64,000 nucleotides of DNA. Origin: Pacificibacter marinus. GTDB lineage: Bacteria; Pseudomonadota; Alphaproteobacteria; Rhodobacterales; Rhodobacteraceae. Both the position numbers and the translations under genes were made by a program. Shown here piece after piece: positions 33,712-51,240 of this stretch. The number at the start of each line of letters is the position of its first letter. Position 1 is the first letter of the stretch. Location of the stretch: NCBI RefSeq assembly GCF_018860665.1, contig NZ_JAHKPK010000038.1, positions 1-64,000 on the forward strand, in the 5' to 3' direction. The notes beneath the pieces were generated by a model. The model made no database searches and was not told the origin of the DNA. It saw only the letters and a list, made by a program, of their open reading frames with translations.

Positions 33712-33935
33712 GCTCCGATAAATACTATACTTTGTATAACCTCCTGTTCACAGGACGTTTGGTATTCGGGCTGTTTTTGCCCCCAAGCTTCAAAGCCAAA
33801 ATGCGTGCCAGAGCGGCTGGCTTTGGCATGGTTGTGATTTTATCAATCAACCAAGGAACCTCAATCTTTCTGTGGTCTTTGATGAATTACAAGGCGAGTG
33901 GGAAAAATGATAGATTTTTGACGACATTCGAGGCG
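33712..33935 (-). pseudogene. Serine-recombinase 3' remnant (left border of metabolic island)
   Basis: Read on the minus strand, this segment matches the last roughly 60-70 codons of the recombinase at 61447-62571, with many substitutions and an internal deletion. The best part is 33718-33759, which is 39/42 identical to 61508-61549 by direct reading. Stretches such as CCAAAATGC.TGCCAGAGCG and GTGATTTT.TCAATCAA also align. It is in the same orientation as the copy at 61.5 kb, so the two make direct repeats around about 27.8 kb. No catalytic domain is present. Confidence 0.7.
33718..33759. repeat. Direct repeat, left copy, containing a dyad with 2-bp centre
   Basis: ATAAATACTATACTTTG is followed by AACCTCCTGT-TC-ACAGGACGTT, a near-perfect 10+2+10 dyad. 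The right copy is at 61508-61549. Confidence 0.65.
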
Positions 33936-34045
33936 GCGATCCTTTCCATTAGAATTTGTGAATGAGACAGTTCATACGATGCAGTCGCGTGCTGTTTTAC
34001 TGCAAATTCTACATGGATCGAATGGCTAAAGGATATGATGAGATA

Positions 34046-36419: not shown

Positions 36420-36427
36420 GTCTTGTC

Positions 36428-37306
36428 TTAGGCTACGTGATTTTCGGGCAGAGCAGGGCCAAGTGTCGTGCCGTAAACGCAGCCTTTTTCTTTTAGCCAA
36501 CGCCGATAGGCGATAGATGTGGCATCTGCGCGGGTCGGTGTCTCAACGCGTGCTTCCAATGGCAAAAGAAGTGGGCGCTGGTTTTCAAGGATGATCCGGT
36601 CTTGTAAAAAAATGACCTGTTGAAAGGCGATTAAGTCGGCGTCGCTGCTATCGACATCCAATAAGAACATCACAGGATGAGCACGAGACAGCCCCGGTTC
36701 CATCGGTTGCACAAACAAGCAGATAACATCCCAACGTGTTTGTGAAATGGGGCAGGTTTTGTACAACAGCACCGTAAACGGCGTGGTTACGCGGTAGATG
36801 TAATCGGTGCGCAGGGGCTCTGTTGCTGATTTCGCAGCGAGCGGTTGAGTGAAAACACAATCCGTTGCCCAGACTTCATCAACGTCACGTCTGATTTCAC
36901 ATTTGTATTTCTCGACTTCGGAATGTGCTTCGGATCCCAAAATATCTTTGTGGACAAACGGAAAATGCGCCATGTCTAAAAAGTTCTCAATCACACGTGG
37001 CGCAGAAGATCGGACTTTGACAGCCCCACAAGGCACATAGCGACGATCGGCTTCTTCGGCTTCAGGAATATCCGGTACGTCTGTGTTAGGGAGGCCCAAT
37101 GTCGACCAAAGATAACCGTACCTTTGGCGCATAGGCAGGGACCGATTGCCCTTGGCTTCACATGTTGTAACCAAAGGGGCGCTGCCGCCGGAAATAGTGA
37201 GATCAACACCCAAAAGTCGCGTGCGCATACCGGATTTTGGAATATCCGCGAGGTTTTGGATGCAATACCATTGATCGAGTGTGGATTTGTCCAATGTCTG
37301 AGTCAT
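36428..37306 (-). CDS. Rieske-less non-haem iron oxygenase subunit, NdmC-like (paralogue 1)
   Basis: A 292-residue protein is related to the catalytic half of Rieske oxygenases. The mononuclear iron motif is intact: N108-x2-D111-x2-H114-x4-H119 in ENFLDMAHFPFVH, with a likely third carboxylate in FLQDRIILENQ. The N-terminus begins like an ordinary family member (WYCIQNLADIPKSGMRTRLLG) and rejoins the fold at YGYLWSTLG. Between these, the roughly 70 residues carrying the CxH...CxxH cluster ligands are missing, replaced by a short Cys-poor stretch. NdmC, the N7-demethylase subunit for 7-methylxanthine in Pseudomonas, has the same architecture and takes electrons from a Rieske domain on another protein. 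Here that would be the product at 44039. Substrate unproven; an N-methylated or oxidised purine is inferred from the operon. Confidence 0.85.
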   Translation of the reverse strand: MTQTLDKSTLDQWYCIQNLADIPKSGMRTRLLGVDLTISGGSAPLVTTCEAKGNRSLPMRQRYGYLWSTLGLPNTDVPDIPEAEEADRRYVPCGAVKVRSSAPRVIENFLDMAHFPFVHKDILGSEAHSEVEKYKCEIRRDVDEVWATDCVFTQPLAAKSATEPLRTDYIYRVTTPFTVLLYKTCPISQTRWDVICLFVQPMEPGLSRAHPVMFLLDVDSSDADLIAFQQVIFLQDRIILENQRPLLLPLEARVETPTRADATSIAYRRWLKEKGCVYGTTLGPALPENHVA

Positions 37307-37316
37307 AGGGTATTTC

Positions 37317-38735
37317 TCATGCGTAAATTCGATCCATTGTTTGGGCATGGTCGTGCATTGCTGCATCAATATCCAGACGGGTAAAGGCTCCTTGTTCGAT
37401 CACAGGGATACCGTTGATGAAAGAGTAATCCACATTAAATGGCCCGCACATAACAAGTGCAGCCAAGGGATCACGCTGCGTGCCGGCCATGCCAAGCTGT
37501 GTGCGCTTGACGGCGATCAAATCGGCGGATTTTCCCGGTGCAATCTGTCCAATGTCATCACGGCCTAATATTTTTGCCCCGCCGCGTGTCGCCATCCAAA
37601 GCGCCTCGCGCGCCGACATCGCCGCAGGTGTGCCGCCAAATCCGCCGCGTCCCCCCGGTGTCTCAGATAAGTAGCGATCCGGCGCGACACGTTGCAAGAA
37701 CTGCGCAAAGCGGACTTCGGAAAACATGTTGGAGGTATCGTTTGAAGCTGACCCATCTACGCCAAGCCCGACTGTGACCCCTGCATCCAACATTTCGCGT
37801 GCGCGCATGATGCCGAGTCCGCAGCGCATATGAGCGGAGGGGCAAAAGGTTGCACCGGTTCCGGTTTCGGCAAAGGTTTTGATTTCTGAGCTGTTTAGGA
37901 AAATGGAATGGGCAAACCAGACATCCGGCCCCAACCAGTCGCAACTTTCCGCATATGCCACAGATCGCATGCCATAGGTTTCTAGACAGTATTCTTCTTC
38001 GGATAGGACTTCGGCGATGTGAGAATGCAGTCGAACCCCTTCATAGGTGCGCGCCAAAGCCGCCGCATCTTTCATCAAACCTTGCGTGACAGAAAAGGCC
38101 GAACATGGCGCAAGGACGATCCGCGTCATCGCATGATCTGACATGTCGTGATAGGTGCCAATCAGGCGTTCGGCGTCTTTCAGGATATCTTCTTCCTCTT
38201 CTACGCAGCTGTCCGGTGGCAATCCACCTTTGCTTTCGCCACGGCTCATTGCGCCGCGTGCAGCGTGAAAACGCATGCCCACTTCCTGTGCCACACGGAT
38301 GGGCGTGTCGAGGGTGCAATCGTTCGGCATGATATATTGGTGATCCGAGCTTGTGGTGCAGCCTGAGATGATCAGTTCTGCCATCGCCATGCGCGATGCT
38401 GTGGCCATCGCGCGATCATCCAGCCGCGCCCAAATCGGATATAGCGTCTTAAGCCAGACAAACAATTCGTCATCTTGAACCATAACGCGGGTGAGGTTCT
38501 GATAAAAATGATGATGCGTGTTGACCATGCCTGGCATCACCACGTGATCCGACAAATCAAGCACACGATCCGCTGTGCGCTCTGCGCCCTCGGGGCAGTC
38601 CGCCATAGGGCCGCAAGCGATAATGATATTGTCGCGGATCAGGATAAACCCGTCAGAAATTTCCGCACCTGCATCACGGTTAGGCCCGTCAAATGTGGCA
38701 AGATGAGAGATGTGTTTGAAAAGAATAGATGTCAT
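37317..38735 (-). CDS. Amidohydrolase, 8-oxoguanine-deaminase-like
   Basis: A 472-residue zinc amidohydrolase. MVNTHHHFYQNLTR (metal ligands H74/H76), the LHSHIAE helix, WFAHSIFL and GLGVDGSASND match the 8-oxoguanine/isocytosine deaminase branch, which also acts slowly on guanine. It would convert 8-oxoguanine to urate. It overlaps the permease upstream by ATGA and is followed after 10 bases by the NdmC-like gene, so it is part of the transport/deamination operon. The exact substrate cannot be fixed from motifs alone. The related S-adenosylhomocysteine/5-methylthioadenosine and triazine deaminases share the fold. Confidence 0.85.
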   Translation of the reverse strand: MTSILFKHISHLATFDGPNRDAGAEISDGFILIRDNIIIACGPMADCPEGAERTADRVLDLSDHVVMPGMVNTHHHFYQNLTRVMVQDDELFVWLKTLYPIWARLDDRAMATASRMAMAELIISGCTTSSDHQYIMPNDCTLDTPIRVAQEVGMRFHAARGAMSRGESKGGLPPDSCVEEEEDILKDAERLIGTYHDMSDHAMTRIVLAPCSAFSVTQGLMKDAAALARTYEGVRLHSHIAEVLSEEEYCLETYGMRSVAYAESCDWLGPDVWFAHSIFLNSSEIKTFAETGTGATFCPSAHMRCGLGIMRAREMLDAGVTVGLGVDGSASNDTSNMFSEVRFAQFLQRVAPDRYLSETPGGRGGFGGTPAAMSAREALWMATRGGAKILGRDDIGQIAPGKSADLIAVKRTQLGMAGTQRDPLAALVMCGPFNVDYSFINGIPVIEQGAFTRLDIDAAMHDHAQTMDRIYA

Positions 38736-39667
38736 CTTTGATCCCTATAATAAGGCGCAGTGATCCCCTCGGGGGCGGCCATAAGGCGGCGCATACGTTG
38801 CCATGTAATCACTGGTAAAATCATCAAAGCCATCGTCCCGAGGTAAGGTAACATTGATAATATTGAGGATGCGATAGGCCAGTTGCGGGCCTGACCGGTA
38901 AAGCCGAGCGCTGTGACAAAGCCAAAGAGCAACCCTGCCAGCACAGCATTGATGGGTCTGAAACCGGCAAAAATAACAAGAGCAACAGCAATCCAGCCGC
39001 GCCCCGCGACCACGCCTTCCGACCAGCTTGGAACAAAGGATAAAGTGAGATAGGCCCCAGCCCCTGCGGCCAATGCAGACCCCAATGATGTGTACCAAAA
39101 CCGCATCTTCATCACAGAAATACCCGCTGCATCAGCCGCCGCAGGGTTTTCGCCAACGGCCCGCATATTCAGGCCATGGCGTGTGTAAAACATCATGTAA
39201 TGCAACGCCAAGGGAAGCGCGAGAAAGATGACATAGACCAATATGTTGTGGCTGAAAAACGCACGTCCGAAAAATGGTAAATCGGACAGTAACGGAATGT
39301 GAAGATCCTCAAATGTTACGGGCACGGGTGAGCCGGAAAACGGTTTGCCGATCGTGGCGGCCATGCCTGTTCCGATATAAGTCAGGGCGAGACCGCACAG
39401 AATTTGATTGGCTCGTATAATCACCGTTGCGGTTGCAAAAATCATGCCAGAGCAAAATCCCACAAAAAGCGCCACAAAAAGCCCAAGCCATGCAGATCCT
39501 GTGCTGACAACTGTCGCCACAGCAGACATGGCGCCCAGTGCGATCAAGCCTTCTACGCCAAGATTAACAACCCCGACACGTTCGGCCAAAACTTCGCCCA
39601 AAGCCGCTAAAGCTAAGACGCCTCCTGCAAGGAATGCGGTTTGAATCAGACCTGCAATAATATCCAT
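38732..39667 (-). CDS. Nucleoside/nucleobase ABC transporter permease (BMP system, second permease)
   Basis: A 311-residue membrane protein with about nine helices is of the BPD_transp_2 type (EAVLAERVGVVNLGVEGLIALGA; RAVGENPAAADAAGISV). This is the shorter permease of NupPQ/YufPQ-like purine nucleoside importers. The EVLAERVGVVNLG signature is that of the permease which pairs with a longer partner, here encoded immediately upstream with 1 base between. It brings the substrates of the deaminases into the cell. Confidence 0.92.
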   Translation of the reverse strand: MDIIAGLIQTAFLAGGVLALAALGEVLAERVGVVNLGVEGLIALGAMSAVATVVSTGSAWLGLFVALFVGFCSGMIFATATVIIRANQILCGLALTYIGTGMAATIGKPFSGSPVPVTFEDLHIPLLSDLPFFGRAFFSHNILVYVIFLALPLALHYMMFYTRHGLNMRAVGENPAAADAAGISVMKMRFWYTSLGSALAAGAGAYLTLSFVPSWSEGVVAGRGWIAVALVIFAGFRPINAVLAGLLFGFVTALGFTGQARNWPIASSILSMLPYLGTMALMILPVITWQRMRRLMAAPEGITAPYYRDQR

Positions 39668-39668
39668 G

Positions 39669-40724
39669 TCAGATGTCCTTCACTTTGGGATGTAGAATTT
39701 TGTAATGGGCCATTTCGTCGCCGATGGCGGCGTAGAGAAGGATAAGGCCAGTCACAGCCAAAACAGTATGAGTGGTTAACCCTTGTGACTGCAAAACAAT
39801 GCCGCCATTCAAAAGAACCGCCATGAAAAATGCTGTAGCCAAGACGCCGATGGGAGCAGCCCGTGCGAGCACGGCAACCATAATACCGATATAGCCGTAA
39901 TTGTTCGATATACCGCCTTGCAAGCGTCCCACCGTTCCAGCCACTTCCATCATTCCGCCGAGCCCTGCAATCGCACCGGACAACAGCATGATGCCGATCA
40001 ATTGGGTTTTTACCGGCATGCCTGCATAGCGAGCTGCCCCCGGATTGGCGCCTGCGATCCGCACTTCGTATCCCCAACGTGTATAGGTTACAAAAAGCGC
40101 CAATGCGATTGCCAGAAAGATGCCGACGAGAGGCCCCCAATGCACAATCCCCCAAAGGGCAGGCACAGACACAGGCAGTCGTGACGTTGTCGCCAAAGCC
40201 ATGCCCGACGGATCAAGCCATGGGCCCGTCGCGACCCAATAGACCAATAATATGGCGACGAAATTCATCAAAAGCGTTGTGATAAGTTCTGAAACATCAG
40301 CATAAGCACGCGCCAATGTCGGGATCAAAATCCACAGCGCGCCGCCGACCATTCCCGCAAGGGCCATCAAAGGTAGGATGACCCAAGTCGGCCCCTGTAC
40401 AAACAGGGCAACACCCGTTGCACAAAATGCCCCGAAATTGAACTGGCCTTCTGCGCCGATATTCCATGCACCAATGCGTAAGGCGACAGCAACGGATAGG
40501 CCGCAATAGACCAAAGGCGAGAACAAAAGGGCCAGATCCTCTAGGCCGAAAGACGATCCAAAGGTTGCGGAAATGACCTTTGCTCCCAAGGCAACCGGAC
40601 TGCGCCCACTTATCGACAAGGCAATCGCAGTGGTGAAAAGGGCTAAAAGAACCGAAGCCACCCGAAAGGCAAAGGCCACGCGCGGCGTGGCAATTGGCAT
40701 GCGTTGAAGGCGTATCAAGTTCAT
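39669..40724 (-). CDS. Nucleoside/nucleobase ABC transporter permease (BMP system, first permease)
   Basis: A 351-residue multi-spanning protein is of the BPD_transp_2 type, with GAWNIGAEGQFNFGAFCATGV and RIAGANPGAARYAGMPV motifs typical of the longer permease in BMP-family nucleoside transporters. Its start overlaps the stop of the ATPase gene (ATGA) and its stop is 1 base from the next start. It forms a heterodimeric channel with the following permease. Confidence 0.92.
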   Translation of the reverse strand: MNLIRLQRMPIATPRVAFAFRVASVLLALFTTAIALSISGRSPVALGAKVISATFGSSFGLEDLALLFSPLVYCGLSVAVALRIGAWNIGAEGQFNFGAFCATGVALFVQGPTWVILPLMALAGMVGGALWILIPTLARAYADVSELITTLLMNFVAILLVYWVATGPWLDPSGMALATTSRLPVSVPALWGIVHWGPLVGIFLAIALALFVTYTRWGYEVRIAGANPGAARYAGMPVKTQLIGIMLLSGAIAGLGGMMEVAGTVGRLQGGISNNYGYIGIMVAVLARAAPIGVLATAFFMAVLLNGGIVLQSQGLTTHTVLAVTGLILLYAAIGDEMAHYKILHPKVKDI

Positions 40725-42295
40725 GTCAGATCCTCCTGCCGTGTGCCGCCCATCATCAAACCGATTTGTTCTACATCGGCGTCTTTTGTGGGGATAATGC
40801 CCATGATTTCACCGTGAAACATCACGGCAATTCGGTCAGAGAAATTCATCAATTCTTCCAGTTCCTCGGAAATAAGAACCACGGCGACGCCTTGGTCGCG
40901 CAACTCAATGAAATAGCGCATCATCGTATTGATCGCGCCAACATCGAGCCCACGAGAAGGGTAGGCGGCAATCAATATTTTTTCTGCAATCCGCATTTCG
41001 CGCCGCGCAACAAGCCGTTGTTGATTGCCGCCGGACAGATTACGTGCAGGCATATTGAAATCAGGCACCATCACATCGGCGACTCTCGCAATTTCACGGG
41101 CCAGATTGGCCGCACCTTTCGGTGAGAACCAGCCTTTGCGCGTCAATGGCGGTTGAGCATATTCACGCAAAACAGCGTTGTCCGTGATCGACAAGGTCGG
41201 GGCCATGCCGGAATGAAGACGATCTTCCGGGATGTGGCCGATGCCCGTTTGCGCCATGGTCCGTGCGCCAGCTTTTGTGACATCTTTACCATCAAGGGTC
41301 AGCATGCCAGAGCTGGGCGTGGAAAGACCGGACATGACGTAAGTCAATTCGCGTTGCCCATTGCCGGCAATCCCAGCGATGCCAAGAATCTCTCCTGCGG
41401 CCAGATCAAACGATATGTTGTTCAGAACCGTTCCCTGATCTGTCGTCAGGCTAATATCTGACAGATTAAGAATGGGAGCGGTTTTGATTGAAGGCGCTGT
41501 TTTTTTCTGTGTCTCGGTCAAGACGATTTCCCGTCCGACCATCAACTGCGCAAGGCTATTTTCTGTGCAAGTGTCCGTCCATTCCGTTGCCACTTTTTTA
41601 CCCCCGCGTAACACAGTCACGCGGTTGGACACTTCCATCACCTCGTCAAGTTTGTGCGAGATGAAAATAACCGCATTCCCACGCGCCACAAATGCTCGCA
41701 GAGCTGCAAAAAGCTCGCGCGCTTCTTTGGGGGTCAACACGGCGGTGGGTTCGTCAAGGATAAGAAGTTTGGCATCACGTGCAAGAACGCGGAGAATTTC
41801 GACGCGTTGTTGTTCGCCCGTGGATAGGTTCGCGACGATGGCTTCGGGTTTCACCGCCAAGCCTAAATTTTGTGCAAGTGCGTGAGTGCGGGATTCTAAG
41901 TGGCGCTTTGAAATACATTTCGGGGTTTGAGGCCATCCGAGGTGAATGTTTTCAGCCACGGTAAACGCGCGTACCAACTTGAAATGCTGATGCACCATGC
42001 CAATGCCCGCGTCTATCGCATCCGTGGGCGACGAAAAATCACGCGCATGGCCTTCAATGATCACTTCGCCCGCATCCATTTTGTAGATGCCGGTTACGAT
42101 GTTCATCAAGGTTGATTTGCCCGCGCCGTTTTCCCCTAAAAGGGCGTGAATTTCACCGGGGTAGACATCGATATCGACATCTTCATTGGCGATAACACCA
42201 GGGAAATATTTGCTGACACCTTTCAGTGCCAAAATAGGTGGCGTCCCGGGCGTTAACCCGAGACGCTGTTGGATCGATGCGGTTTGCCGCGCCAT
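40721..42295 (-). CDS. Nucleoside/nucleobase ABC transporter ATPase (tandem ABC domains)
   Basis: A 524-residue ATPase has two ABC cassettes. The first has Walker A GENGAGKST, signature LSTGEQQR and Walker B LLILDEPTAVL. The second has a degenerate P-loop (GIAGNGQREL), signature LSGGNQQR and the PSRGLD form of Walker B. This is the sugar/nucleoside (RbsA/NupA) pattern in which only the first site is fully canonical. I place the start at 42295, 2 bases after the stop of the binding-protein gene; the frame is open further upstream to 42340. Confidence 0.92.
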   Translation of the reverse strand: MARQTASIQQRLGLTPGTPPILALKGVSKYFPGVIANEDVDIDVYPGEIHALLGENGAGKSTLMNIVTGIYKMDAGEVIIEGHARDFSSPTDAIDAGIGMVHQHFKLVRAFTVAENIHLGWPQTPKCISKRHLESRTHALAQNLGLAVKPEAIVANLSTGEQQRVEILRVLARDAKLLILDEPTAVLTPKEARELFAALRAFVARGNAVIFISHKLDEVMEVSNRVTVLRGGKKVATEWTDTCTENSLAQLMVGREIVLTETQKKTAPSIKTAPILNLSDISLTTDQGTVLNNISFDLAAGEILGIAGIAGNGQRELTYVMSGLSTPSSGMLTLDGKDVTKAGARTMAQTGIGHIPEDRLHSGMAPTLSITDNAVLREYAQPPLTRKGWFSPKGAANLAREIARVADVMVPDFNMPARNLSGGNQQRLVARREMRIAEKILIAAYPSRGLDVGAINTMMRYFIELRDQGVAVVLISEELEELMNFSDRIAVMFHGEIMGIIPTKDADVEQIGLMMGGTRQEDLT

Positions 42296-42297
42296 CT

Positions 42298-43422
42298 TTA
42301 CGTGTCCAAACCTGACACGCCCTCGATGGACCAATTCCAATGATAGAGCTCTTGCTCGGTCATTGTTTCACCTTTGGCGACTTTGACGTTGCCTTTGCTG
42401 TCCTTGATTTCGCCTAAGAACGGGTTGAAGGACCCGTCCATGATTGAGGCTTTGACAGCATCGGCTTTTGCGGCGACATCCGCAGGGACAGTTGCGCCCC
42501 ATGCGTCGACATCCACGCCACTGCCGAAGGGCAGAAGGTCTTGGGTCGGGGTCCATTCGCCAGCAAGACGGCGGCGGACTTGTTCGACATAAAAGGCTTT
42601 AAAGTCCACGATGATTGATGAAATATAGGCGTTAGGGCCATAGCGGCGCAAATCGGTGTTCCACATGACGGCTTTAGCGCCACGTTCTTCCGCAACTTGC
42701 AAATAACCCGCTTCATCCATGATACCAAAGAGCACGTCACAGCCATTATCGATCAAAGCTGTGCCGGCCTGTGTGGCCGCTTGCGGGTCAAACCAGCTGT
42801 TGATCACGATGGCTTGCAGTGTTGCTTCGGGGTTGACCGTCCGTGCGCCCATAAGGAAAGCATTGGTGCCAGAATAGACTGAAGGCACAGGGAAAGATGC
42901 AACATAACCCAATTTTCCAGAGGGTGACATGGCCCCCGCAGCGATCCCCGCGATGTAGGATGGGTACCAATGCGACACATAGTAAGTGCCAAGATTTTCG
43001 AGTGCGCTGCGGCCGTCACATTCATAGAATGCAACGTTTGGCGCACGATTTGCGACGTCATATAGGAAGTCGCCGTAATTCGATGTGGCGAAGACCATGT
43101 TGGCGTCATCGGCCACGAATTGACGGTAAATACGCGTGGCATCCGCTGAATAGGGGATGCTTTCAACATAAGATGTGCGCAGCTTGGGGAATGCCGCTTC
43201 GACAGCTTTCATGCCTTGGTCATGCGCCCAAGTCCATCCCTCGTCAGAGGTTGGGCCAGTGTGCCCAAAAGCGATATGTGCATTTTCTTCTGCGACCGGG
43301 GCGAGTGGGGCTGCTGCATGTGCAGGCTGGAGAAGGCCGGTTTTAGGCAAAACAAGGCCTACGCCAGCTGCGACACCCATGTTCAAAAAGCCGCGGCGGG
43401 ACAGGGATTTGGTCGAAATCAT
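42298..43422 (-). CDS. BMP-family substrate-binding protein with Tat signal
   Basis: A 374-residue periplasmic protein begins with a twin-arginine signal (SRRGFLNMGVAAGVGLVLP) and continues with the basic-membrane-protein fold of purine-nucleoside binders: IAFGHTGPTSDEGWTWAHDQG, FVADDANMVFATSNYGDF, GCDVLFGIMDEAGY. There is no lipobox Cys, so it is exported folded and soluble, not as the usual lipoprotein. It is the first gene of the seven-gene leftward operon and probably fixes what the system imports: nucleosides or purine bases. Confidence 0.9.
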   Translation of the reverse strand: MISTKSLSRRGFLNMGVAAGVGLVLPKTGLLQPAHAAAPLAPVAEENAHIAFGHTGPTSDEGWTWAHDQGMKAVEAAFPKLRTSYVESIPYSADATRIYRQFVADDANMVFATSNYGDFLYDVANRAPNVAFYECDGRSALENLGTYYVSHWYPSYIAGIAAGAMSPSGKLGYVASFPVPSVYSGTNAFLMGARTVNPEATLQAIVINSWFDPQAATQAGTALIDNGCDVLFGIMDEAGYLQVAEERGAKAVMWNTDLRRYGPNAYISSIIVDFKAFYVEQVRRRLAGEWTPTQDLLPFGSGVDVDAWGATVPADVAAKADAVKASIMDGSFNPFLGEIKDSKGNVKVAKGETMTEQELYHWNWSIEGVSGLDT

Positions 43423-43778
43423 AAGGAAGAACCTCTTATCTGTTTATGCTGCCTCATCCCCTTTGTGTGACCATTAGGGATGAGGGCGCGACTGAACGCG
43501 CTTAGATGGAATGTTTGGGTGCCAGCGTGATGCGCCAGCAGCCAAACCTCGAAATTCGTGTCAGCGACAAGGCGGTTTGTCCGTCTCATCTTTGTGTGTG
43601 ACACCACGTTTCCAAAAGTAAATGATGCTGAATAGAGGCTAAGTTTGCACCTCAATGTTGCTTATAGAACAACACTTGACGGTTGTGGAATTCGCCTCTC
43701 TAAGTGATTCTGATATTAAACATTCAGTCGTTGCCTCTGTGTTTCTTGGGGCTTTCTTGTGGGATGCTGTGCGCGCAT
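43423..43778. promoter_or_regulatory. Divergent promoter region of the purine cluster
   Basis: The 356 bases between the BMP operon and the rightward operon must hold both promoters. TGTTG-N9-CAACA at 43656-43674 has the spacing of a LysR-type box. TTGACG (43676-43681) could be a -35. I see no convincing complete promoter on either strand. Confidence 0.5.
43656..43674. promoter_or_regulatory. Candidate LysR-type operator
   Basis: TGTTG, nine bases, CAACA is a perfect dyad with interior TTATAG, and its T-to-A span suits LysR binding. It is the only symmetrical LysR-like box I noticed in the divergent region. The cluster encodes its own LysR protein at 45349. Confidence 0.35.
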
Positions 43779-44042
43779 ATGAAAATCGAACAGGTCAAAT
43801 TTACATTTAAGGGCGATTTGCTTGCTGCGAGCTTCCTTGAATTTGCAGAACACCGCGCGCGGCGCTTGTCGGTGCAACTTGTCACGCAGGACCAAAGTGA
43901 CACCTGCGCGAAAATGATCGTGACAGGGCAACCAGATTTGGTGGATGCATTTGAAATGGCTATGAGCCTTGGGCCACAAGATTGCGTTGTTCACGATGTT
44001 TGGCGTGACGAAATGCTGATAAAAAAAGGAATGTCTTTATGA
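43779..44042 (+). CDS. Acylphosphatase-fold protein lacking the catalytic Arg
   Basis: An 87-residue protein with the acylphosphatase layout: a first strand and loop (VKFTFKGDLLAASFLEFAEHRARRL), a mid segment where the catalytic Asn would sit, and the GPQDCVVHDVW end. In active enzymes the loop reads GxVQGVGFR; here the Arg position is Leu (SFLEF), and the Asn is not preserved. It is unlikely to hydrolyse acyl phosphates and may be a binding or assembly protein. The stop overlaps the Rieske gene by ATGA, so it is made together with the electron-transfer protein. Start is uncertain (43764 is possible); the family call is by pattern only. Confidence 0.55.
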   Translation: MKIEQVKFTFKGDLLAASFLEFAEHRARRLSVQLVTQDQSDTCAKMIVTGQPDLVDAFEMAMSLGPQDCVVHDVWRDEMLIKKGMSL

Positions 44043-44707
44043 CGCAGACCGTGGAAGTTCTGTCACAATGGGTTCCGATCGCCCTATCAAATATGATCGA
44101 ATCTGGCACATCTGCTGGCGTGGTTGCCAAAGGCGCTGAGATTGTCGTTTGGCGTGACTCCTCTGGCGTTGCGCATGCTTGGGAAGATCGTTGCCCTCAT
44201 CGTGGTATGAAAATGAGCTTTGGGTTCGTGCGAGGCGACCACATTACCTGCCTTTATCATGGCTGGGAGTATGATCAGAGCGGTACGTGCCAATATATCC
44301 CTGCCCATCCTGAGGTTGAGGTTCCAAAATCTATCTGTGTTGCCCGATATGGTGTGGCCGAGGCGGGGGGGCTCATTTGGGCGCAATTGCCGCTTGGGTC
44401 AAGTGAGAGCAGCTTCGCAGGTTTGCCTGCTATGGAAGGGGTGAAATCCGTATACATTGACGCCTCAGATGCGACTGTTTTAGCCGTCTTGCGCAAGCAG
44501 GGCTGTGCTGATGGTGATGTCGCGAATGTCGTGATCTTGGAACGTGATGGAGCCACGATGACCATTGGTATTCAACCCATCTCAAGCGCCCAATGTGCGC
44601 TACATATTACTGTGCCTGAAGGCTGTGCGGGCGATGTAAGGGAATCTATTCTTGATTGGAGCGAGGAACTGCGACGCAGCATCGAAGAGCTGGAGGTCGT
44701 GACATGA
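44039..44707 (+). CDS. Free-standing Rieske [2Fe-2S] protein with vestigial oxygenase tail
   Basis: A 222-residue protein. Residues 10-118 form a complete Rieske domain of the oxygenase type, with cluster ligands C52-P-H54 and C71-L-Y-H74 (CPHRGMK, CLYHGW) and the IPAHP and YGVAEAGGLIWAQL features that normally lead into the catalytic domain. The last 100 residues have no N-x2-D-x2-H-x4-H iron motif and are far too short for a catalytic domain. This is the exact complement of the two Rieske-less oxygenases at 36428 and 50401. It should therefore pass electrons to them, as the extra Rieske domain of NdmD does for NdmC. It is coupled on both sides by ATGA overlaps. The reductase feeding it is not in the window. 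Confidence 0.88.
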   Translation: MTQTVEVLSQWVPIALSNMIESGTSAGVVAKGAEIVVWRDSSGVAHAWEDRCPHRGMKMSFGFVRGDHITCLYHGWEYDQSGTCQYIPAHPEVEVPKSICVARYGVAEAGGLIWAQLPLGSSESSFAGLPAMEGVKSVYIDASDATVLAVLRKQGCADGDVANVVILERDGATMTIGIQPISSAQCALHITVPEGCAGDVRESILDWSEELRRSIEELEVVT

Positions 44708-45324
44708 TCTTACATAATTATGATCTTTTTGAGAATTGCTATCGGGTTCGTTTGGTCGCATCTTGTGCTGAAGTGGCGCTGGAACTGATCAATGTGGACG
44801 CCTTTCCCGGCACAGAAGAAAAATCCCCTGAGTACTTAAAACTAAACCCGATGGGGCGTCTGCCTATTTTAGAGGACAATGCGCTGGTTTTGCGTAATCT
44901 TTCAGCAGTTCTAATTTACGTGGCGGAACAAGATATCGATAAACGATTCATACCTGATGAGGCAAAGGACCGCGCTCGGATGATGGATTGGCTGGGATTC
45001 GCTTGTGATGATCTTGCTGTTGCGGTGCAGGCACGCGCTGTCGCCTTGCTGGATGCGGCGGGGGATGTTGCTGAATTACGTGCGCAGGCGCGGGCGTTAT
45101 TTCGTATTCTGGACGACCATTTGACGCGGCAGTCTTTGAGAGGCGAAAATTTTGTGGCGGGGGATGTGCCCAGTTTGGCAGACCTCGCGCTGTTCCCAGC
45201 TTTCGCACTCAGTCGAGATTTTAATCTTGATCATGATGAGTTTCCTGCACTACGTCTTTGGGCGCGCAGAATACGCCTGTTGCCAGGTTTCATAACGATG
45301 CCGGGAATTCCTGACTATCATTAG
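44704..45324 (+). CDS. Glutathione S-transferase-like protein, NdmE-like
   Basis: A 206-residue two-domain GST: an N-terminal thioredoxin fold (residues 1-78, with the LNPMGRLPILEDNALVLRNLSAVL glutathione-binding segment) and an all-helical C-terminal domain (90-200). In the Pseudomonas N7-demethylase a GST-like protein, NdmE, is required to assemble the complex of NdmC and NdmD. Its position directly after the Rieske gene (ATGA overlap) argues for the same structural role. A catalytic GST acting on formaldehyde or another intermediate is the alternative. Confidence 0.82.
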   Translation: MILHNYDLFENCYRVRLVASCAEVALELINVDAFPGTEEKSPEYLKLNPMGRLPILEDNALVLRNLSAVLIYVAEQDIDKRFIPDEAKDRARMMDWLGFACDDLAVAVQARAVALLDAAGDVAELRAQARALFRILDDHLTRQSLRGENFVAGDVPSLADLALFPAFALSRDFNLDHDEFPALRLWARRIRLLPGFITMPGIPDYH

Positions 45325-45348
45325 GCCAGACTACTTTTAGGAAAGCTA

Positions 45349-46284
45349 TTGGATTTACATCGCCTCGGTCTTGTTTCGTCTCGCGTCTACCACTTTTCTC
45401 TGGTGGCCCGCTTGGGGTCCATCCGTCAGACGGCATTGACGTTAAATGTTGCGCCGTCTTCTATTTCTCGTTCGATCAAGCAACTTGAAGAAGACCTTGG
45501 CACACCATTGTTCGACCGCACCAAGCAACGATTGCGGCTGACCTCTGCTGGGGAATTACTTGAGCACCACATCAAGCAATCAACGGGTGAAATGAACCGC
45601 GCTGTGACGGAAATCGGCGACCTGCAAGGGCTGCGCCGTGGCACTGTCACTTTAGCTGTCATTGAAAGTGCGTCGAGGGGGATTCTGACAGATGTGCTAG
45701 CCGGTTTTTGGGTGCGCCATCCAGAAATCAGTGTCGATATACAGGTTGTAGGGTCACAAAATGCGGTTGATTTGGTGCATCAAGGTGAGGCGGATCTCGC
45801 ACTAGCATTCGATGTGCGCGTGCCGCGTAATGCGCGTAGGTTGACATCAATTTCTCTGCCGCTTGGAGTTTTGGTCTCCCCCGGCAGCCCGCTTACGAAG
45901 CTGCGTGGAAAGTTGAAAAGTTACGATCTTTCAGGCGAACGGGTCATCTTGTCTGACGGGTCTTTGACGCTTGGCAGTTCAGTCGAGCAAATGTTTTCTG
46001 GGGCTTTTGTTGAATTTTCACGGCGGACAAAAACCAACTCTATTGGCTTGATGATTGATCTCGCGACTCGTGGGTTAGGCACTATTTTGCAGACCAAAAT
46101 GGGGGTGCAGGCCGAGATTGCGCGCGGACAACTGACGTTTATTCCTTTGTCTGATCCTGGTTTAAGTCTAAGGCGGTTGACGCTTGTGTCGCGCCCGAAA
46201 GGTGAAGTGTCTGAAGCGGCTCAGGCGCTGGCGGATGTTTTGACGTCTACTCTTGAATCGATGCGGGAAACTTCACGCGACTAG
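45349..46284 (+). CDS. LysR-family transcriptional regulator
   Basis: A 311-residue regulator has an N-terminal winged helix-turn-helix (about 10-68: YHFSLVARLGSIRQTALTLNVAPSSISRSIKQLEEDLG) and a periplasmic-binding-protein-like effector domain (about 95-300). The start is TTG 45349, with AGGAAAG 5 bases upstream. It lies inside the rightward gene series, 24 bases after the GST gene, and probably responds to a purine or pathway intermediate to control the divergent region at 43.4-43.8 kb. A 100-base gap follows, so a second promoter may serve the genes from 46386 onward. Confidence 0.92.
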   Translation: MDLHRLGLVSSRVYHFSLVARLGSIRQTALTLNVAPSSISRSIKQLEEDLGTPLFDRTKQRLRLTSAGELLEHHIKQSTGEMNRAVTEIGDLQGLRRGTVTLAVIESASRGILTDVLAGFWVRHPEISVDIQVVGSQNAVDLVHQGEADLALAFDVRVPRNARRLTSISLPLGVLVSPGSPLTKLRGKLKSYDLSGERVILSDGSLTLGSSVEQMFSGAFVEFSRRTKTNSIGLMIDLATRGLGTILQTKMGVQAEIARGQLTFIPLSDPGLSLRRLTLVSRPKGEVSEAAQALADVLTSTLESMRETSRD

Positions 46285-46385
46285 TGTTGCGCTGAGTGAA
46301 ACAACTCGTTCTACAATTACCGTCTTTTGGGAACAGTTTTTTCCTGACAGGTTGATAGAAATCGAGCTATCAACCGGAGGGAATG

Positions 46386-46886
46386 ATGAAACAAAGTGCC
46401 GTCGATGCAGTGATCCGCGGGCTGAAACGGGCTGGGGTGACGCTGGTGTGTTATCTCCCCGATAGTTTGTTCAAAGAACTTTACCCCGCACTTGATGCCG
46501 ACCCAGACATTCGCACGATTCAGGTGACGAATGAGGGCGAAGGCGCTGCGATTTGCGGCGGTATATTTTTGTCAGGACAGCGCGCAGCATTGGTCATGGA
46601 AAATTCCGGCCTGCGGGCGTCAGTTGAGCCTTTGGCGCGAATGGGCCTTGGGGCTGGCATTCCGGTTGTGATGCTTATGAGCTACCGTGGCGATATGGGC
46701 GAAAACAATTGGTGGGCTGTACCACACGCCACCACAATGGAGCCGGTTCTTAAAGCGCTGCGCATTCCCTATGCGGTTGAGCGCGAAGAGGAACGCATCG
46801 AACAGGCCATCGTCGATGCCTATGAACTGGCCTATGCCTCTTACTATCACACAGCTGTGGCCCTATCTGGGAGTATCGTACGATGA
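46386..46886 (+). CDS. TPP-dependent decarboxylase, PYR (alpha) subunit
   Basis: A 166-residue protein matches the N-terminal, pyrimidine-binding domain of thiamine-diphosphate enzymes of the sulfopyruvate/phosphonopyruvate decarboxylase type. The catalytic Glu is in VTNEGEGAAICGG, and MENSGL and WWAVPHAT are typical of the group. It is the alpha half; the beta half follows with an ATGA overlap. ATG 46386 is chosen because GGAGG lies 5 bases upstream. The enzyme should decarboxylate a 2-oxo acid to an aldehyde. Which acid is unknown; its place in a purine operon suggests a ring-opening or side-chain product. Confidence 0.82.
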   Translation: MKQSAVDAVIRGLKRAGVTLVCYLPDSLFKELYPALDADPDIRTIQVTNEGEGAAICGGIFLSGQRAALVMENSGLRASVEPLARMGLGAGIPVVMLMSYRGDMGENNWWAVPHATTMEPVLKALRIPYAVEREEERIEQAIVDAYELAYASYYHTAVALSGSIVR

Positions 46887-47491
46887 AACGATTTGATTGT
46901 ATGACCAAATTGGCAGCGCGCCTGTCTGATGAGTTGGTGATTTTGTCACTCGGTGCCTCCGTTGATGAATGGTACAATGCTGCGCCGCATATGCGCGAAG
47001 CGTCCCTGTTTCAACAACAGCTTGGCTGTGTGACCCCTGAAGCTTTCGGACTGGCAGCAGGTCTACCTGACCGCCAAATTGTATCGCTCGACACAGATGG
47101 TGGGCTTTTGTTTAATTTGGGTATTCTTGCGACTTTAGGCAACGAGCAGCCGAAAAACCTGTTTGTCGTTGTTTGGGATAACGAGCAATACCAATCGATT
47201 GGTGGCCCCAAAACGCATACCGCGTCGGGGCGTGTCGATCTTGCGGGGATCGCGCGCGCTTCTGGTATCGATCAGGCGTTCACCGCAACAACGGTGGAAG
47301 AATTCGACGCACATTGTGAAGCGGGCCTGAAGGCTGAGGTCCCTTATGTCGTTGTCGCCAAGGTTTCAGGCACTGTGCAGCCTGAAATCAAGCGCAAACA
47401 TTCTGATGGGCGTGAAGATAAATACATCTTTGTACGCCATGTCGAGAAAACCGAAGGGATCACGATTATGGGCCCTTCCGAGCACAATTGA
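46883..47491 (+). CDS. TPP-dependent decarboxylase, PP (beta) subunit
   Basis: A 202-residue protein carries the diphosphate/metal-binding domain of the same enzyme family: SLDTDGGLLFNLGILATLGNE with the downstream WDNEQYQSIGG corresponds to the GDG...NN motif, with Thr in place of the first Gly. Separate alpha and beta polypeptides are the rule for sulfopyruvate decarboxylases (ComD/ComE). Together with the GMC oxidoreductase and the aldehyde dehydrogenase of the same operon it could form an oxo acid to aldehyde to acid route. Confidence 0.82.
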   Translation: MKRFDCMTKLAARLSDELVILSLGASVDEWYNAAPHMREASLFQQQLGCVTPEAFGLAAGLPDRQIVSLDTDGGLLFNLGILATLGNEQPKNLFVVVWDNEQYQSIGGPKTHTASGRVDLAGIARASGIDQAFTATTVEEFDAHCEAGLKAEVPYVVVAKVSGTVQPEIKRKHSDGREDKYIFVRHVEKTEGITIMGPSEHN

Positions 47492-47498
47492 TCAACGT

Positions 47499-49022
47499 AT
47501 GAAAACCAGCTTTGACTATATCATCATTGGGTCTGGATCAGGGGGCTCTGCGGTTGCGCGGCGTCTTCATGATGCGGGCGCAGATGTTGCCGTGGTCGAA
47601 GCTGGGCGGTCTAGCTTTGGTATTTCCGATATCGAAGATCCGTCAAAATGGTTCGGGCTGCAAAGTGGAGTATGGGATTGGGGGCATCATTATGCCCCGA
47701 CCAATCGCATCCTTGACCGCGAAATTGCGATCCCGCGGGGCAAGGCTTTGGGCGGGTCTACTGCGACCAATGCAATGATGTGGTATCGAGGTGTGCCTGC
47801 TGATTATGAACGTTGGAATGCGCGCGCGGCTGGCTGGAGTTGGCAAGATTGTTTGCCTGCGTTCAAGGCGTCTGAAAACTGGTCCGAGGGGGCAAGCGAT
47901 CTACGTGGTGGCGAAGGCCCACTAAAAATCACCCGCCCAAATCCAGATCATCCGCTCACGCAAGCGATGCTTAAAAGTGGTGCTGCGATGGGACTGCCGC
48001 TGCTCGATGATCCGAATGGCCCTGAACCTTTTGGTGTGGGGTTGGCAAATTTCAATATTGATAGCGCGGGTCGGCGACATACATCGGCAGAGGCTTACCT
48101 TGCGCCGATTATGGTCTCGGATCGCGTAACTATATTGACCGAAACTCTTGCGCTTTATCTGACATTCGATGGAGATCGCACATCAGGTGTTGCGGTGAGT
48201 GGTCCAGACGGCGAGGCGCATCTCACAGCGCAATGTGGCGTGATTTTATCTGCTGGAGCACTGGAGACGCCGCGTCTTTTGATGTTGTCTGGGATTGGAC
48301 CAGAGGCAGAATTGGCGCGTTTGGGCCTGCCGATCAAACTTAAAGCCGCTGCCATTGGACAGAACCTTCAAGACCACCCTTTGTTGCGCGCATTGAACTT
48401 TCGTGCCTCAGCGCCGCTCGGCGAAATGGTGGGCAACGGCGGAGGGACATTGACGATATGGAAATCTGATGACGCGCTTGCCCAAGCCGATCTTTTGGCG
48501 TTTCCTGTACAAGGGCGGTCTGCGACGCCAGCGCTTTGGGATCAGTATAATTTGGATGGGGACGACATTTTTGCCATTGGGCTTGGTGTGATGCAGTCGC
48601 ATTCTAAGGGCCGGATACGCCTGAACGCTGCGTCTCCCACTGCGCCGTTAGACATTCAACCCAATTTACTTGGTGATCCGCGTGATTTGGCGGCCCTCGT
48701 CAGTGGCATTGAGTTTCTTATGGATATGGTAGCCTCAACGGGGTTTGCACCCTTTTTCAAAGACCATGTCGCGCCACGACGATCTGATGATTTTGAGACC
48801 TTTGTGCGGCGCTCTTGTTCCACCTTTTTTCACTGTTGCGGAACAGCCCAAATGGGCTCTCATGATGATGCCCCCGTTTCCCCTCGGTTGGGCGTCAAAG
48901 GCGTTCGCGGTCTCTGGGTCGCGGACGCTTCTGTCATTCCCGAAATCCCTGCGTGCCATACCCACGCGCCTGTCACGATGATCGGTGAACGTGCCGCAAC
49001 ATTTATATTGGAGGACGCATGA
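47499..49022 (+). CDS. GMC-family FAD-dependent alcohol oxidoreductase
   Basis: A 507-residue flavoprotein. The Rossmann motif IIIGSGSGGSAVARRL and an Asp/Glu-ended VAVVEAG open the chain, followed by the GMC signatures PRGKALGGSTATNAMMWYRG and GALETPRLLMLSGIG. The C-terminal catalytic segment is HCCGTAQMG...ASVIPEIPACHTHAPVTMIGERAA, with a His pair. It resembles choline/alcohol dehydrogenases that oxidise primary alcohols to aldehydes. The aldehyde dehydrogenase three genes on could take the product further. No strong ribosome site precedes ATG 47499, 7 bases after the previous stop; a much longer upstream frame overlaps the decarboxylase and is rejected. Confidence 0.88.
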   Translation: MKTSFDYIIIGSGSGGSAVARRLHDAGADVAVVEAGRSSFGISDIEDPSKWFGLQSGVWDWGHHYAPTNRILDREIAIPRGKALGGSTATNAMMWYRGVPADYERWNARAAGWSWQDCLPAFKASENWSEGASDLRGGEGPLKITRPNPDHPLTQAMLKSGAAMGLPLLDDPNGPEPFGVGLANFNIDSAGRRHTSAEAYLAPIMVSDRVTILTETLALYLTFDGDRTSGVAVSGPDGEAHLTAQCGVILSAGALETPRLLMLSGIGPEAELARLGLPIKLKAAAIGQNLQDHPLLRALNFRASAPLGEMVGNGGGTLTIWKSDDALAQADLLAFPVQGRSATPALWDQYNLDGDDIFAIGLGVMQSHSKGRIRLNAASPTAPLDIQPNLLGDPRDLAALVSGIEFLMDMVASTGFAPFFKDHVAPRRSDDFETFVRRSCSTFFHCCGTAQMGSHDDAPVSPRLGVKGVRGLWVADASVIPEIPACHTHAPVTMIGERAATFILEDA

Positions 49023-50389
49023 GCGACCTAATTTTGACTGCCGATGCCATCGTAACAATGAATGCAACGCGCGAAACGCTGACAGATGCGGCGATTTTCG
49101 TGAAAGGCGATGAGATTGCCGCCATTGGCCCACAGACCGAAGTGATTGCCGCCAACCCGAACGTATCTGTCAAAAATCTGGGCAAAGCTGTTTTGATGCC
49201 AGGATTGATCAACGCGCATGCGCATTCAGGATTCCTGCGCGGCACAGCTGAACATTTACCTGTCTGGGATTGGCTGGCGCAGCATATCAACCCCATGCAC
49301 CGTGTCCTTTTGCCCGAAGAAGCCGAGGCGGCGAGTTACCTTGCTTACGCCGAAAGCCTGTTGGGCGGCACGACAACAATCGTCGACATGTGGCGTCATA
49401 TGGATGGATCTGCACGCGCCTGCGAAGTTCTTGGTAATCGTTTGATTGCAGTGCCTTATGTTGGGGAACATCCTGATTACAACTATTTCGACACGCTTGA
49501 TATGAACGAAGGATTGATTGAGCGCTGGAATGGCAAAGCGCAGGGGCGTGTGAATGTTTGGGTCGGTTTAGAACATCTTTTCTACGCCGATGAGCCCGCC
49601 CAACAGCGCGCCATTGATATGTCGAAAAAATACAACGTTCCGTTTCATACGCATTGCTCGGAAGCTGAAATCGAACTGGCGGAATACCAAACACGTTACG
49701 GAAAAAAACCGATGGAGGTGTTCCGCGATCTCGGTTTTTTTGAGACCCCCTTGGCGATGTTCGCTCATGCGGTTTGGTTCTCGCAAGACGAGATAGAAAT
49801 GGTTGCCGATTACAACGTCTCCGTGGCGCATAACCCCGTATCGAATATGAAATTGGCCTCAGGGATTGCGCCCATCAAAGAAATGCTTGCCGCTGGTATC
49901 CCCGTTGGCATTGGTACTGATGGCGAAAAAGAAAATAACAACTTTGACATGTTTGAAGAGATGAAAACAGCATCTCTCAAAGGTAAGCTGCGTGAACTGG
50001 ATGCAGCTGCGATGGACAGTTGGTCTGTGTTGGAAATGGCGACCTGTTTAGGGGCCAAGGCCGTGGGGCTAGATAAGGTCACGGGGTCTTTAGAAGTGGG
50101 TAAAAAAGCGGACATCATTGCCGTAGATGGTCGATCACCACGCATGACGCCATTTTTCCCAGACGGGCGTTGGTTTAATTTGCAACACAATCTTGTCCAT
50201 GCAGTCAAAGGCGGCGATGTCAAAATGACGATGGTCAACGGTGAGGTCTGTGTCGATGAGGGACGCCTTGTTTCTGGCGATATGTCTGAAATTATTGATC
50301 GTGTTTCCCGTCTGGCACCAGGTCATTTCCAGCGTCGCCAAACTTGGTTGGATGCCAATGGTGGCGGGACGACGCAATGGACGGACTAA
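49019..50389 (+). CDS. Amidohydrolase, purine/SAH-deaminase-like (second)
   Basis: A 456-residue metal amidohydrolase: LMPGLINAHAHSGFLRG (H67/H69), PFHTHCSEAE, AHAVWFS and the late catalytic Asp in GIGTDGEKENNNFDMFEEM. It belongs to the cytosine/guanine/5-methylthioadenosine-SAH deaminase superfamily branch. The Glu-Asn-rich TDG segment is distinctive, so the substrate may be a less common purine or pterin. Its start overlaps the GMC gene (ATGA) and it precedes the second NdmC-like gene by 11 bases. Together they suggest deamination and N-demethylation of the same molecule. Confidence 0.85.
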   Translation: MSDLILTADAIVTMNATRETLTDAAIFVKGDEIAAIGPQTEVIAANPNVSVKNLGKAVLMPGLINAHAHSGFLRGTAEHLPVWDWLAQHINPMHRVLLPEEAEAASYLAYAESLLGGTTTIVDMWRHMDGSARACEVLGNRLIAVPYVGEHPDYNYFDTLDMNEGLIERWNGKAQGRVNVWVGLEHLFYADEPAQQRAIDMSKKYNVPFHTHCSEAEIELAEYQTRYGKKPMEVFRDLGFFETPLAMFAHAVWFSQDEIEMVADYNVSVAHNPVSNMKLASGIAPIKEMLAAGIPVGIGTDGEKENNNFDMFEEMKTASLKGKLRELDAAAMDSWSVLEMATCLGAKAVGLDKVTGSLEVGKKADIIAVDGRSPRMTPFFPDGRWFNLQHNLVHAVKGGDVKMTMVNGEVCVDEGRLVSGDMSEIIDRVSRLAPGHFQRRQTWLDANGGGTTQWTD

Positions 50390-50400
50390 AGGAGAAAAAG

Positions 50401-51240
50401 ATGGCAGGCACCCAAGATCCCGTGGCGCTTAATGACTGGTATGCTGTTGCGACTGCGACAGATTTGGATCATGCAGCAGACACCAAGTTGCTTGGCCACC
50501 CCATTACCGTCGGTCCGGGCCACAAGGTGGTTCACGATGGTCGAGATTTGCCAGTGCGTGAAAAGTTTGGGGTGCTTTGGACCACATTGGGCACACCGAA
50601 CAAAGAGATTTTTGATATTGCAGAAAGCCAAGAGACTGGTCGCCGTTTCGTTCCATGTGGCTGGGTCAAAATGCGGGCTTCTGGATTGCGGGTCGTGGAA
50701 AACTTTCTCGACATGGCGCATTTCCCCTTTGTTCATGCGGATATTTTGGGCTCTGAGCCTCATACAGAAGTGCTGAGTTATAAATCAGAAATCCGCCATG
50801 ACGTGGATGAGGTCTGGGCAACCAATTGCAAATTTTTTCAACCTCAGATGACGACGACGCGTCCGGATGGCGAATTCGCGCAGCTTACCTATCGGGTTCC
50901 GTCGCCCTTTGTTGTGATGCTTTATCGTGTGGTGCCGGACAGTGGTGGAGTTGAAGATGCCATCGCGCTGTTTATTCACCCAATAGACGAAGATGAAGTG
51001 CGCGCGATCCCTGTGATGTATCTTACGGATCAAGAGGCCAGCCACACCCAACTGTTGCGGTTTGAGCAGGTGATTTTTTTACAAGACAGGATCATCGTTG
51101 AAAACCAGCGCCCGCGGCTTTTACCACTTGAAGCGCGTGCTGAAATCCCAACGCGTGCCGACAGTTCCTCGGTCGCTTATCGGCGATGGTTGAAACAAAA
51201 GGGCTTAACATTTGGAACAACAACGCCGGAGGCGGCATGA
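50401..51240 (+). CDS. Rieske-less non-haem iron oxygenase subunit, NdmC-like (paralogue 2)
   Basis: A 279-residue protein is clearly paralogous to the product at 36428. Both share ENFLDMAHFPFVH and the ending LPLEAR...IPTRAD...VAYRRWLK. The iron motif is N101-x2-D104-x2-H107-x4-H112, with a likely further carboxylate in FLQDRIIVENQ. As in its paralogue, the Rieske domain is reduced to a ligand-free spacer (about residues 33-58) before FGVLWTTLG. It should use the Rieske protein at 44039. ATG 50401 has GGAG 6 bases upstream, and the stop overlaps the molybdoenzyme gene (ATGA). Coupling to the xanthine-dehydrogenase-like gene suggests demethylation followed by ring hydroxylation. Substrate inferred, not shown. 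Confidence 0.86.
   Translation: MAGTQDPVALNDWYAVATATDLDHAADTKLLGHPITVGPGHKVVHDGRDLPVREKFGVLWTTLGTPNKEIFDIAESQETGRRFVPCGWVKMRASGLRVVENFLDMAHFPFVHADILGSEPHTEVLSYKSEIRHDVDEVWATNCKFFQPQMTTTRPDGEFAQLTYRVPSPFVVMLYRVVPDSGGVEDAIALFIHPIDEDEVRAIPVMYLTDQEASHTQLLRFEQVIFLQDRIIVENQRPRLLPLEARAEIPTRADSSSVAYRRWLKQKGLTFGTTTPEAA

Follow-up and report, generated by a model that had tools for sequence, protein, structure and literature searches.

Rieske oxygenases normally carry their iron-sulfur cluster and their catalytic iron site on a single chain, and they are hard to re-engineer. The closest described split system is NdmCDE, the N7-demethylase of caffeine-degrading Pseudomonas, for which passages of PMC4408171 state that a glutathione S-transferase-like (GST-like) partner is required. 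The same passages report ndmCDE-like clusters of Sinorhizobium and Mesorhizobium as homologues of unknown function. The window analyzed here, 64,000 nucleotides of Pacificibacter marinus (contig NZ_JAHKPK010000038.1, positions 1 to 64,000), contains a gene cluster that, on balance, we read as encoding a split Rieske oxygenase with two heads that acts on modified purines. Its architecture is well supported; its substrates are proposals. The core genes are:

50401..51240, plus strand: CatA, catalytic subunit with a non-heme iron site and no Rieske cluster (279 residues; VanA_C, E 1.2e-19)
36428..37306, minus strand: CatB, second catalytic subunit with the architecture of CatA (VanA_C, E 7.3e-19)
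43779..44042, plus strand: acylphosphatase-fold small protein (87 residues; an alternative upstream ATG at 43764 is possible)
44039..44707, plus strand: stand-alone Rieske protein, a [2Fe-2S] domain plus a degenerate catalytic domain without an iron site (222 residues)
44704..45324, plus strand: GST-like, NdmE-like protein (GST_N and GST_C Pfam matches)

CatA and CatB are 53% identical. Both match the Pfam family VanA_C and, weakly, KshA_C; neither matches a Rieske family. The iron motif N-x2-D-x2-H-x4-H was found in all 98 related catalytic proteins collected and the cluster motif CxH-x12-20-CxxH in none of them, which together with the Pfam matches bears out the observation of an earlier note on this DNA that both proteins keep the iron motif and have lost the cluster ligands. 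That note also had the genes right, except that 36428-37306 had to be moved to the minus strand, its plus frame being full of stops. N101, D104, H107, H112 and D229 are invariant across 14 aligned sequences, and we take them to be the 2-His-1-Asp iron site and the bridging Asp. Among solved structures in the PDB, the one-chain oxygenases SxtDIOX/GxtA and SxtT come closest, followed by NdmA and NdmB (for CatB, SxtDIOX at E 7.8e-22 and NdmA at E 8.1e-10). In the SxtDIOX alignment CatA jumps from residue 27 to 47 where the PDB chain runs from 26 to 104. The cluster-bearing segment is thus, by alignment, gone from the catalytic subunits, which complements the loss of the iron site in the Rieske protein. 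On its own genome the catalytic-subunit profile found CatA, CatB and one distant match (E 8e-8), which sits in a 372-residue frame that also carries a Rieske domain.

The protein encoded at 44039-44707 has the reverse anatomy. Its one Pfam match is Rieske PF00355 (E 3.8e-23), and among stand-alone Rieske proteins of 180-240 residues the cluster motif is present in 61/61 and the iron motif in 0/61, as expected from the earlier description of a full Rieske ligand set without an iron site. The structure model resembles an entire Rieske-oxygenase subunit minus about 80 residues around the iron site, and NdmD-type proteins align to it along equal length in a full-length profile match. According to this model, the protein is a degenerate oxygenase subunit that has lost its iron-site segment; the N-terminal half of NdmD would then also be explained as a degenerate oxygenase subunit and not as an added ferredoxin. 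The ATGA overlap reported between the Rieske gene and the GST-like gene was recovered at 44704-44707. A second one (44039-44042) ties the Rieske gene to the small upstream gene, a conserved part that the earlier list had overlooked. The acylphosphatase fold of its product was borne out. In the conserved columns of 44 members, read on their own and not aligned to a known enzyme, there is no Arg after the motif Phe (F19) and no conserved Asn, at the positions where we assume the catalytic pair would lie. The protein probably partners the oxygenase without being catalytic itself. Of 83 stand-alone Rieske genes, 75 have the small gene upstream (the set numbered 90 before seven fused NdmD-type or one-chain oxygenases were set aside), and none of the four fused NdmD loci has it. 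Eight Rieske genes have no such neighbor (L037, L044, L048, L063, L089, L094, L098 and L095); in L095 the small gene exists, but on the opposite strand.

Homology to the caffeine system extends to every shared component, as had been proposed. CatA and CatB share 39-43% identity with the NdmC-type proteins encoded in fused loci, the Rieske protein 28-30% with the N-terminal part of NdmD-type proteins, and the GST-like protein 33-38% with products of GST genes adjoining fused NdmD-type genes. The comparators were plasmid genes of Pseudomonas fulva, Klebsiella, Sinorhizobium and Mesorhizobium, in place of the CBB5 proteins. Three plasmid forms were distinguished by annotation or tblastn. The fused form combines an NdmC-like gene, an NdmD-like protein of 585-588 residues (Rieske plus reductase) and a GST, and is found in Klebsiella, Mesorhizobium and Sinorhizobium meliloti, where pSymA carries a tandem pair of NdmC-like genes alongside a single NdmD-type gene and a single GST; in Pseudomonas fulva, NdmC-like and NdmD-like genes are annotated and a GST-like match is present. 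The compact form has Rieske, catalytic, GST and amidohydrolase genes with a BMP importer (Rhizobium leguminosarum, Shinella, Qingshengfaniella). The window form, with two catalytic genes, also occurs in Rhizobium tumorigenes.

The Rieske part is free of a reductase, as the earlier note had it: the 222-residue protein has no reductase domain, and a search with the reductase part of NdmD-type proteins (E 1e-3) gave no match in the window or in 80 related loci. These loci are the 80 top-ranking ones among 527 confirmed places on genome contigs and are biased towards CatA. Since the fused reductase, a defining trait of NdmCDE, is absent and none of the 80 loci has a reductase match, the window system is, by gene content, a sister form of NdmCDE and not NdmCDE itself; it appears to be a widespread relative of the caffeine-demethylating enzyme with rearranged parts. 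The three best NdmD-reductase-like genes of the genome were considered as dedicated reductases and rejected: C34:12000-12911 (36%), C7:125488-126360 (31%) and C35:2648-3508 (27%) all have a different Rieske oxygenase about 2-3 kb away, and none was assigned. In a quick tree, a branch with support 99 separates all 98 NdmC-like rows from three one-chain outgroups. The catalytic subunits would thus not lie far from NdmC, in a tree whose outgroup branches are very long and from which the CBB5 NdmC and the Klebsiella NdmC-type protein are absent.

The other genes of the cluster are:

33962..35065, plus strand: adenosine/adenine deaminase family (A_deaminase, E 4.6e-68; PDB 4gxw, 3ou8)
35070..36500, minus strand: guanine deaminase type amidohydrolase (TIGR02967, 365.3 bits, just under the cut-off of 375.4); the true start probably lies further in
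37317..38735, minus strand: 8-oxoguanine deaminase type amidohydrolase (NCBIfam, 575.8 bits, cut-off 532)
38732..43422, minus strand: BMP-type ABC importer with two permeases, ATPase and binding protein (63-71% identity to annotated R. tumorigenes genes)
45349..46284, plus strand: LysR-type regulator (LysR-annotated homologue in the syntenic R. tumorigenes locus)
46383..46886, plus strand: thiamine diphosphate (ThDP) decarboxylase, alpha subunit (TPP_enzyme_N, E 3.8e-8)
46883..47491, plus strand: ThDP decarboxylase, beta subunit (TPP_enzyme_C, E 9.7e-14)
47499..49022, plus strand: GMC flavoprotein alcohol oxidase/dehydrogenase (GMC_oxred_N/C)
49019..50389, plus strand: amidohydrolase AHY1, deaminase type (PDB neighbors include the MTA/SAH-deaminase-like 4f0r)
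51237..54335, plus strand: xanthine dehydrogenase (XDH)-family FAD and molybdopterin subunit (PDB relatives)
54332..54796, plus strand: XDH-family 2Fe-2S subunit (Fer2_2, E 7.5e-22)
54793..56301, plus strand: aldehyde dehydrogenase (60% identity to an R. tumorigenes gene so annotated)
56401..57729, plus strand: amidohydrolase AHY2, deaminase type (NCBIfam/PDB amidohydrolase deaminase relatives)

The whole cluster is syntenic in Rhizobium tumorigenes and portions of it are in the 80 related loci, and the purine setting described before is upheld by the deaminase matches listed above. The XDH-type enzyme does belong to the XDH family, but canonical xanthine dehydrogenases come only third among the PDB relatives of 51237-54335, after 4-hydroxybenzoyl-CoA reductase and nicotinate dehydrogenase. 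The GMC protein has as PDB relatives a chloramphenicol-inactivating oxidoreductase, alcohol oxidases, choline oxidase, pyridoxine 4-oxidase and hydroxymethylfurfural oxidase. The ThDP pair was also considered as a sulfopyruvate decarboxylase and rejected, both subunits being under the curated cut-offs (alpha 103.9 versus 147.95 bits); its identity to annotated ComE is about 32%. Passages of PMC7373994 report a xanthine (NMT1) riboswitch beside similar genes; an Rfam scan of window positions 27000-64000 gave no match at the gathering threshold. A 103-nucleotide direct repeat (33672-33774 and 61462-61564, 76% identical, 27.8 kb apart) brackets the purine cluster, and its second copy falls in the 3' part of a recombinase-like open reading frame (61447-62571, minus strand), which suggests from the repeats that the cluster lies between mobile-element remnants. 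Elsewhere in the window, judged by eye, 21514-27354 encodes a secreted repeat-like protein of 1946 residues with DUF11-type and SdrD-type repeats, and 57902-60983 (minus strand) holds ATPase, permease and membrane-fusion genes resembling a MacB/DevBCA-type exporter.

CatA and CatB represent two lineages with different gene partners. CatA rows form one supported group in the quick tree (35 rows, support 100), and seven near-fixed positions separate the two. The nine NdmC-type and compact proteins agree with CatB without exception at 162, 176, 187 and 233 and in eight cases at 222; at 192 and 197 they are not clearly with CatB. The flanks contain the GMC gene at 31/32 CatA loci and AHY1 at 29/32, and neither gene at any of 44 CatB loci; the guanine-deaminase type shows the opposite pattern (0/32 and 27/44). 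Six contigs, each with a CatA and a CatB locus, count twice among the 80 (L020/L090, L024/L086, L025/L072, L028/L084, L031/L049 and L040/L068), and each time the ThDP genes are in the CatA locus. In the 42 genomes behind CatB-type or compact-type loci, from which the six CatB loci of doubled contigs were omitted, a CatA orthologue (at least 64% identity) and a ThDP beta orthologue (at least 81%) are present in the identical 20 genomes; both are missing from the remaining 22, two of which have ThDP matches of at most 34%. On a metagenome contig (L089, 249-3069) a CatB-like gene is joined by another catalytic-like gene that is divergent (38%) and has Rieske and GST genes of its own beside it.

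These lineages bear on the proposal of the earlier note that the system is an N-methylpurine demethylase. The NdmC homology agrees with it; as a demethylase of that kind alone it is not supported, CatA being a separate lineage with ThDP, GMC, aldehyde dehydrogenase and XDH-like partners. Because these CatA-tied enzymes are needless for N-demethylation, the cluster is likely to do more. Both catalytic subunits could instead be NdmCDE-like N-demethylases of differing position specificity (e.g. for 7-methyl- and 1-methylguanine from RNA turnover), with the ThDP, GMC and aldehyde dehydrogenase genes as a separate neighboring pathway. Homology to NdmC throughout, the tandem NdmC-like genes of S. 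meliloti sharing one NdmD-type gene and one GST, and the occurrence of ThDP genes without CatA speak for this. It is nevertheless unlikely, given the strict co-presence of CatA and ThDP beta in 20 of 42 genomes, GMC and AHY1 genes that stand beside CatA and never beside CatB alone, and the CatA-specific residues.

The preferred reading is a two-headed oxygenase with one shared donor. The anatomy and its conservation are seen in the sequences, and there is one Rieske protein of the stand-alone class for the two catalytic genes, matching the earlier count of two catalytic subunits alongside one Rieske protein. The Rieske protein would dock on either catalytic subunit in company with the GST-like protein and, probably, the product of the acylphosphatase-fold gene, so that one electron donor might feed two active sites, with electrons coming from a reductase presumably encoded elsewhere. 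Both halves would have arisen from ordinary oxygenase subunits by complementary loss, of the cluster segment in the catalytic subunits and of the iron-site segment in the Rieske protein. CatB is probably an N-demethylase, most likely acting on a guanine- or xanthine-type base, because it keeps NdmC-type residues and lies near guanine-type deaminases and purine import genes. CatA is probably a methyl hydroxylase that feeds oxidation and decarboxylation, as argued by its own residues and its ties to GMC, aldehyde dehydrogenase, ThDP, deaminase and XDH-like enzymes. It would most likely hydroxylate a methyl group, or a similar substituent, carried by a purine carbon; the product would be oxidized twice to a carboxylate, and the ThDP enzyme would then release CO2, leaving an ordinary purine for catabolism. 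A candidate substrate is a C-methylated adenine, e.g. the RNA base 2-methyladenine. TsaMBCD and the fungal thymine/iso-orotate route presumably are parallels to this scheme. The GMC relatives that oxidize primary or ring hydroxymethyl alcohols support it, as does the breakdown of lumichrome, where a ring hydroxymethyl is oxidized to an acid and a two-subunit ThDP enzyme decarboxylates a heterocyclic ring carboxylate (PMC12746152).

The CatA-linked enzymes were also found without CatA. Low-identity actinomycete ThDP loci L124 and L125 were inspected as lum clusters and are not lum, while a third, L126, led to the actinomycete genome G720. This genome has homologues of the ThDP pair (74 and 81%), GMC, aldehyde dehydrogenase and AHY1 and no match to the catalytic subunits. 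The genes lie in a purine-to-allantoin cluster (C2:160000-199900, L128/L129), with an NtaA/DmoA-family FMN monooxygenase (404 bits, cut-off 279.7) between the aldehyde dehydrogenase and ThDP genes. The neighbors are two adenosine-deaminase genes, nucleoside phosphorylase, nucleoside hydrolase, adenine phosphoribosyltransferase, urate oxidase, hydroxyisourate hydrolase and allantoinase. Because of this arrangement the CatA branch is, on genomic context, tied to purines, and it suggests that an unrelated oxygenase can fill the place of CatA. On plasmid CP131057 (L127, 7125-12609) the ThDP genes are accompanied by a LysR gene and an ABC importer of the NMT1 type, and the ThDP substrate might be imported directly there; no catalytic subunit was matched in a search of the plasmid alone, an empty answer that shows little.

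The same evidence weighs on the idea that the CatA branch degrades pteridines such as 6-hydroxymethylpterin from folate, in which GMC and aldehyde dehydrogenase would make the 6-carboxylate, the ThDP enzyme would remove it, the XDH-like enzyme and a deaminase would follow, and CatA would oxygenate the ring or side chain. The window deaminases presumably have relatives among isoxanthopterin and pterin deaminases, 2paj being among the PDB matches of 37317-38735. That protein is, however, nearer to 8-oxoguanine deaminase (3hpa and 7ww2, about 446 bits) than to 2paj (246 bits), and G720 keeps the same enzymes inside its purine-to-allantoin cluster. The kinship of the XDH-like enzyme to nicotinate dehydrogenase and the action of the lumichrome ThDP enzyme on a pyrazine-ring carboxylate (PMC12746152) fit pteridines, which we still regard as decidedly improbable substrates. 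To the purine reading we would add, tentatively, a modular methyl eraser for RNA-derived purines, in which a free Rieske donor would serve CatB for N-demethylation of guanine-type bases and CatA for oxidative C-demethylation of a 2-methyladenine-like base by a new route (CH3 to CH2OH, CHO, COOH and CO2, the last step by a ThDP heterocycle decarboxylase), the flavin monooxygenase replacing the Rieske head in G720. It would be the purine counterpart of the fungal thymine/iso-orotate route.

Several points weigh against the two-headed purine oxygenase. Substrate, interface and activity are predicted. CatB rows share one side of a branch with support of only 13, and the 42 genomes are related to one another, the count being uncorrected for kinship. 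Aldehyde dehydrogenase, absent from the flanks of all 44 CatB loci, is found in only 24 of 32 CatA loci, and the XDH large subunit in 26 of 32, counts in which some flanks end at contig ends. Six CatB loci (L058, L070, L074, L077, L080 and L083) have no purine gene in their flanks; they keep CatB, the small gene, Rieske and GST, a minimal unit that may work alone. CatA is not the sole ThDP partner, since G720 and CP131057 have ThDP genes without it. The window pair (about 18 and 22 kDa by length) is likened to LumK/LumL by class and size alone.

The distribution is patchy. The CatA/CatB pair occurs in 8 of 20 listed genomes of the genus, and 10 of 148 relatives have a match, nine of them with two. 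A ThDP beta orthologue was found in 2/398 sampled genomes of the phylum (E 1e-40) and, at 81-82% identity, in 2/394 genomes of the actinomycete class sampled around G398. Hosts are often plant-associated Rhizobiaceae, which, with the adenine-type deaminases and the N-dealkylation carried out by Rieske and NtaA-type enzymes, would fit removal by the CatA branch of a longer, cytokinin-type N6 side chain from adenine with an aldehyde released for the aldehyde dehydrogenase, but this is very improbable, as the ThDP decarboxylase would be left without a role, relatives include marine or soil Rhodobacterales, and the open-licence PMC literature gave nothing relevant on cytokinins and Rieske enzymes.

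The two-headed oxygenase would be a natural one-donor, two-catalyst system whose visible remnants of lost domains show how an oxygenase can be split and re-used, and the cluster points to an uncharacterized route for dismantling modified purines. New here are the complementary losses in the Rieske protein and the catalytic subunits, the acylphosphatase-fold gene, the co-presence of CatA and ThDP genes and the actinomycete cluster without CatA; searches of open-licence PMC literature turned up no account of the stand-alone Rieske form, the acylphosphatase-fold gene or this pathway.

Lumichrome catabolism (LumA-E, LumJ, LumK/L) resembles the window in its two-subunit ThDP decarboxylase, amidohydrolases, xanthine-oxidase-like enzyme, Rieske oxygenase and ring hydroxymethyl oxidation (PMC12746152). 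It differs in having an ordinary two-component Rieske dioxygenase, a P450 and ring-cleavage enzymes, while the window has a purine setting. One-chain oxygenases (NdmA/NdmB, SxtT/GxtA and dicamba monooxygenase) have the fold and motifs of both halves, which the window splits over two chains, and each chain retains a vestige of the domain found on the other. The S. meliloti pSymA cluster shares tandem NdmC-like genes with a single donor, and that of Mesorhizobium an adjoining guanine deaminase and XDH; in both the NdmD-type reductase is fused, and the acylphosphatase-fold gene was not found in the four fused loci. NdmCDE itself shares, with sequence homology, an iron subunit without Rieske cluster, a Rieske domain on another protein and a GST-like partner. 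The window departs from it in a free Rieske protein with no linked reductase, an extra acylphosphatase-fold gene and two divergent catalytic subunits, of which CatA is tied to the ThDP, GMC and aldehyde dehydrogenase branch.

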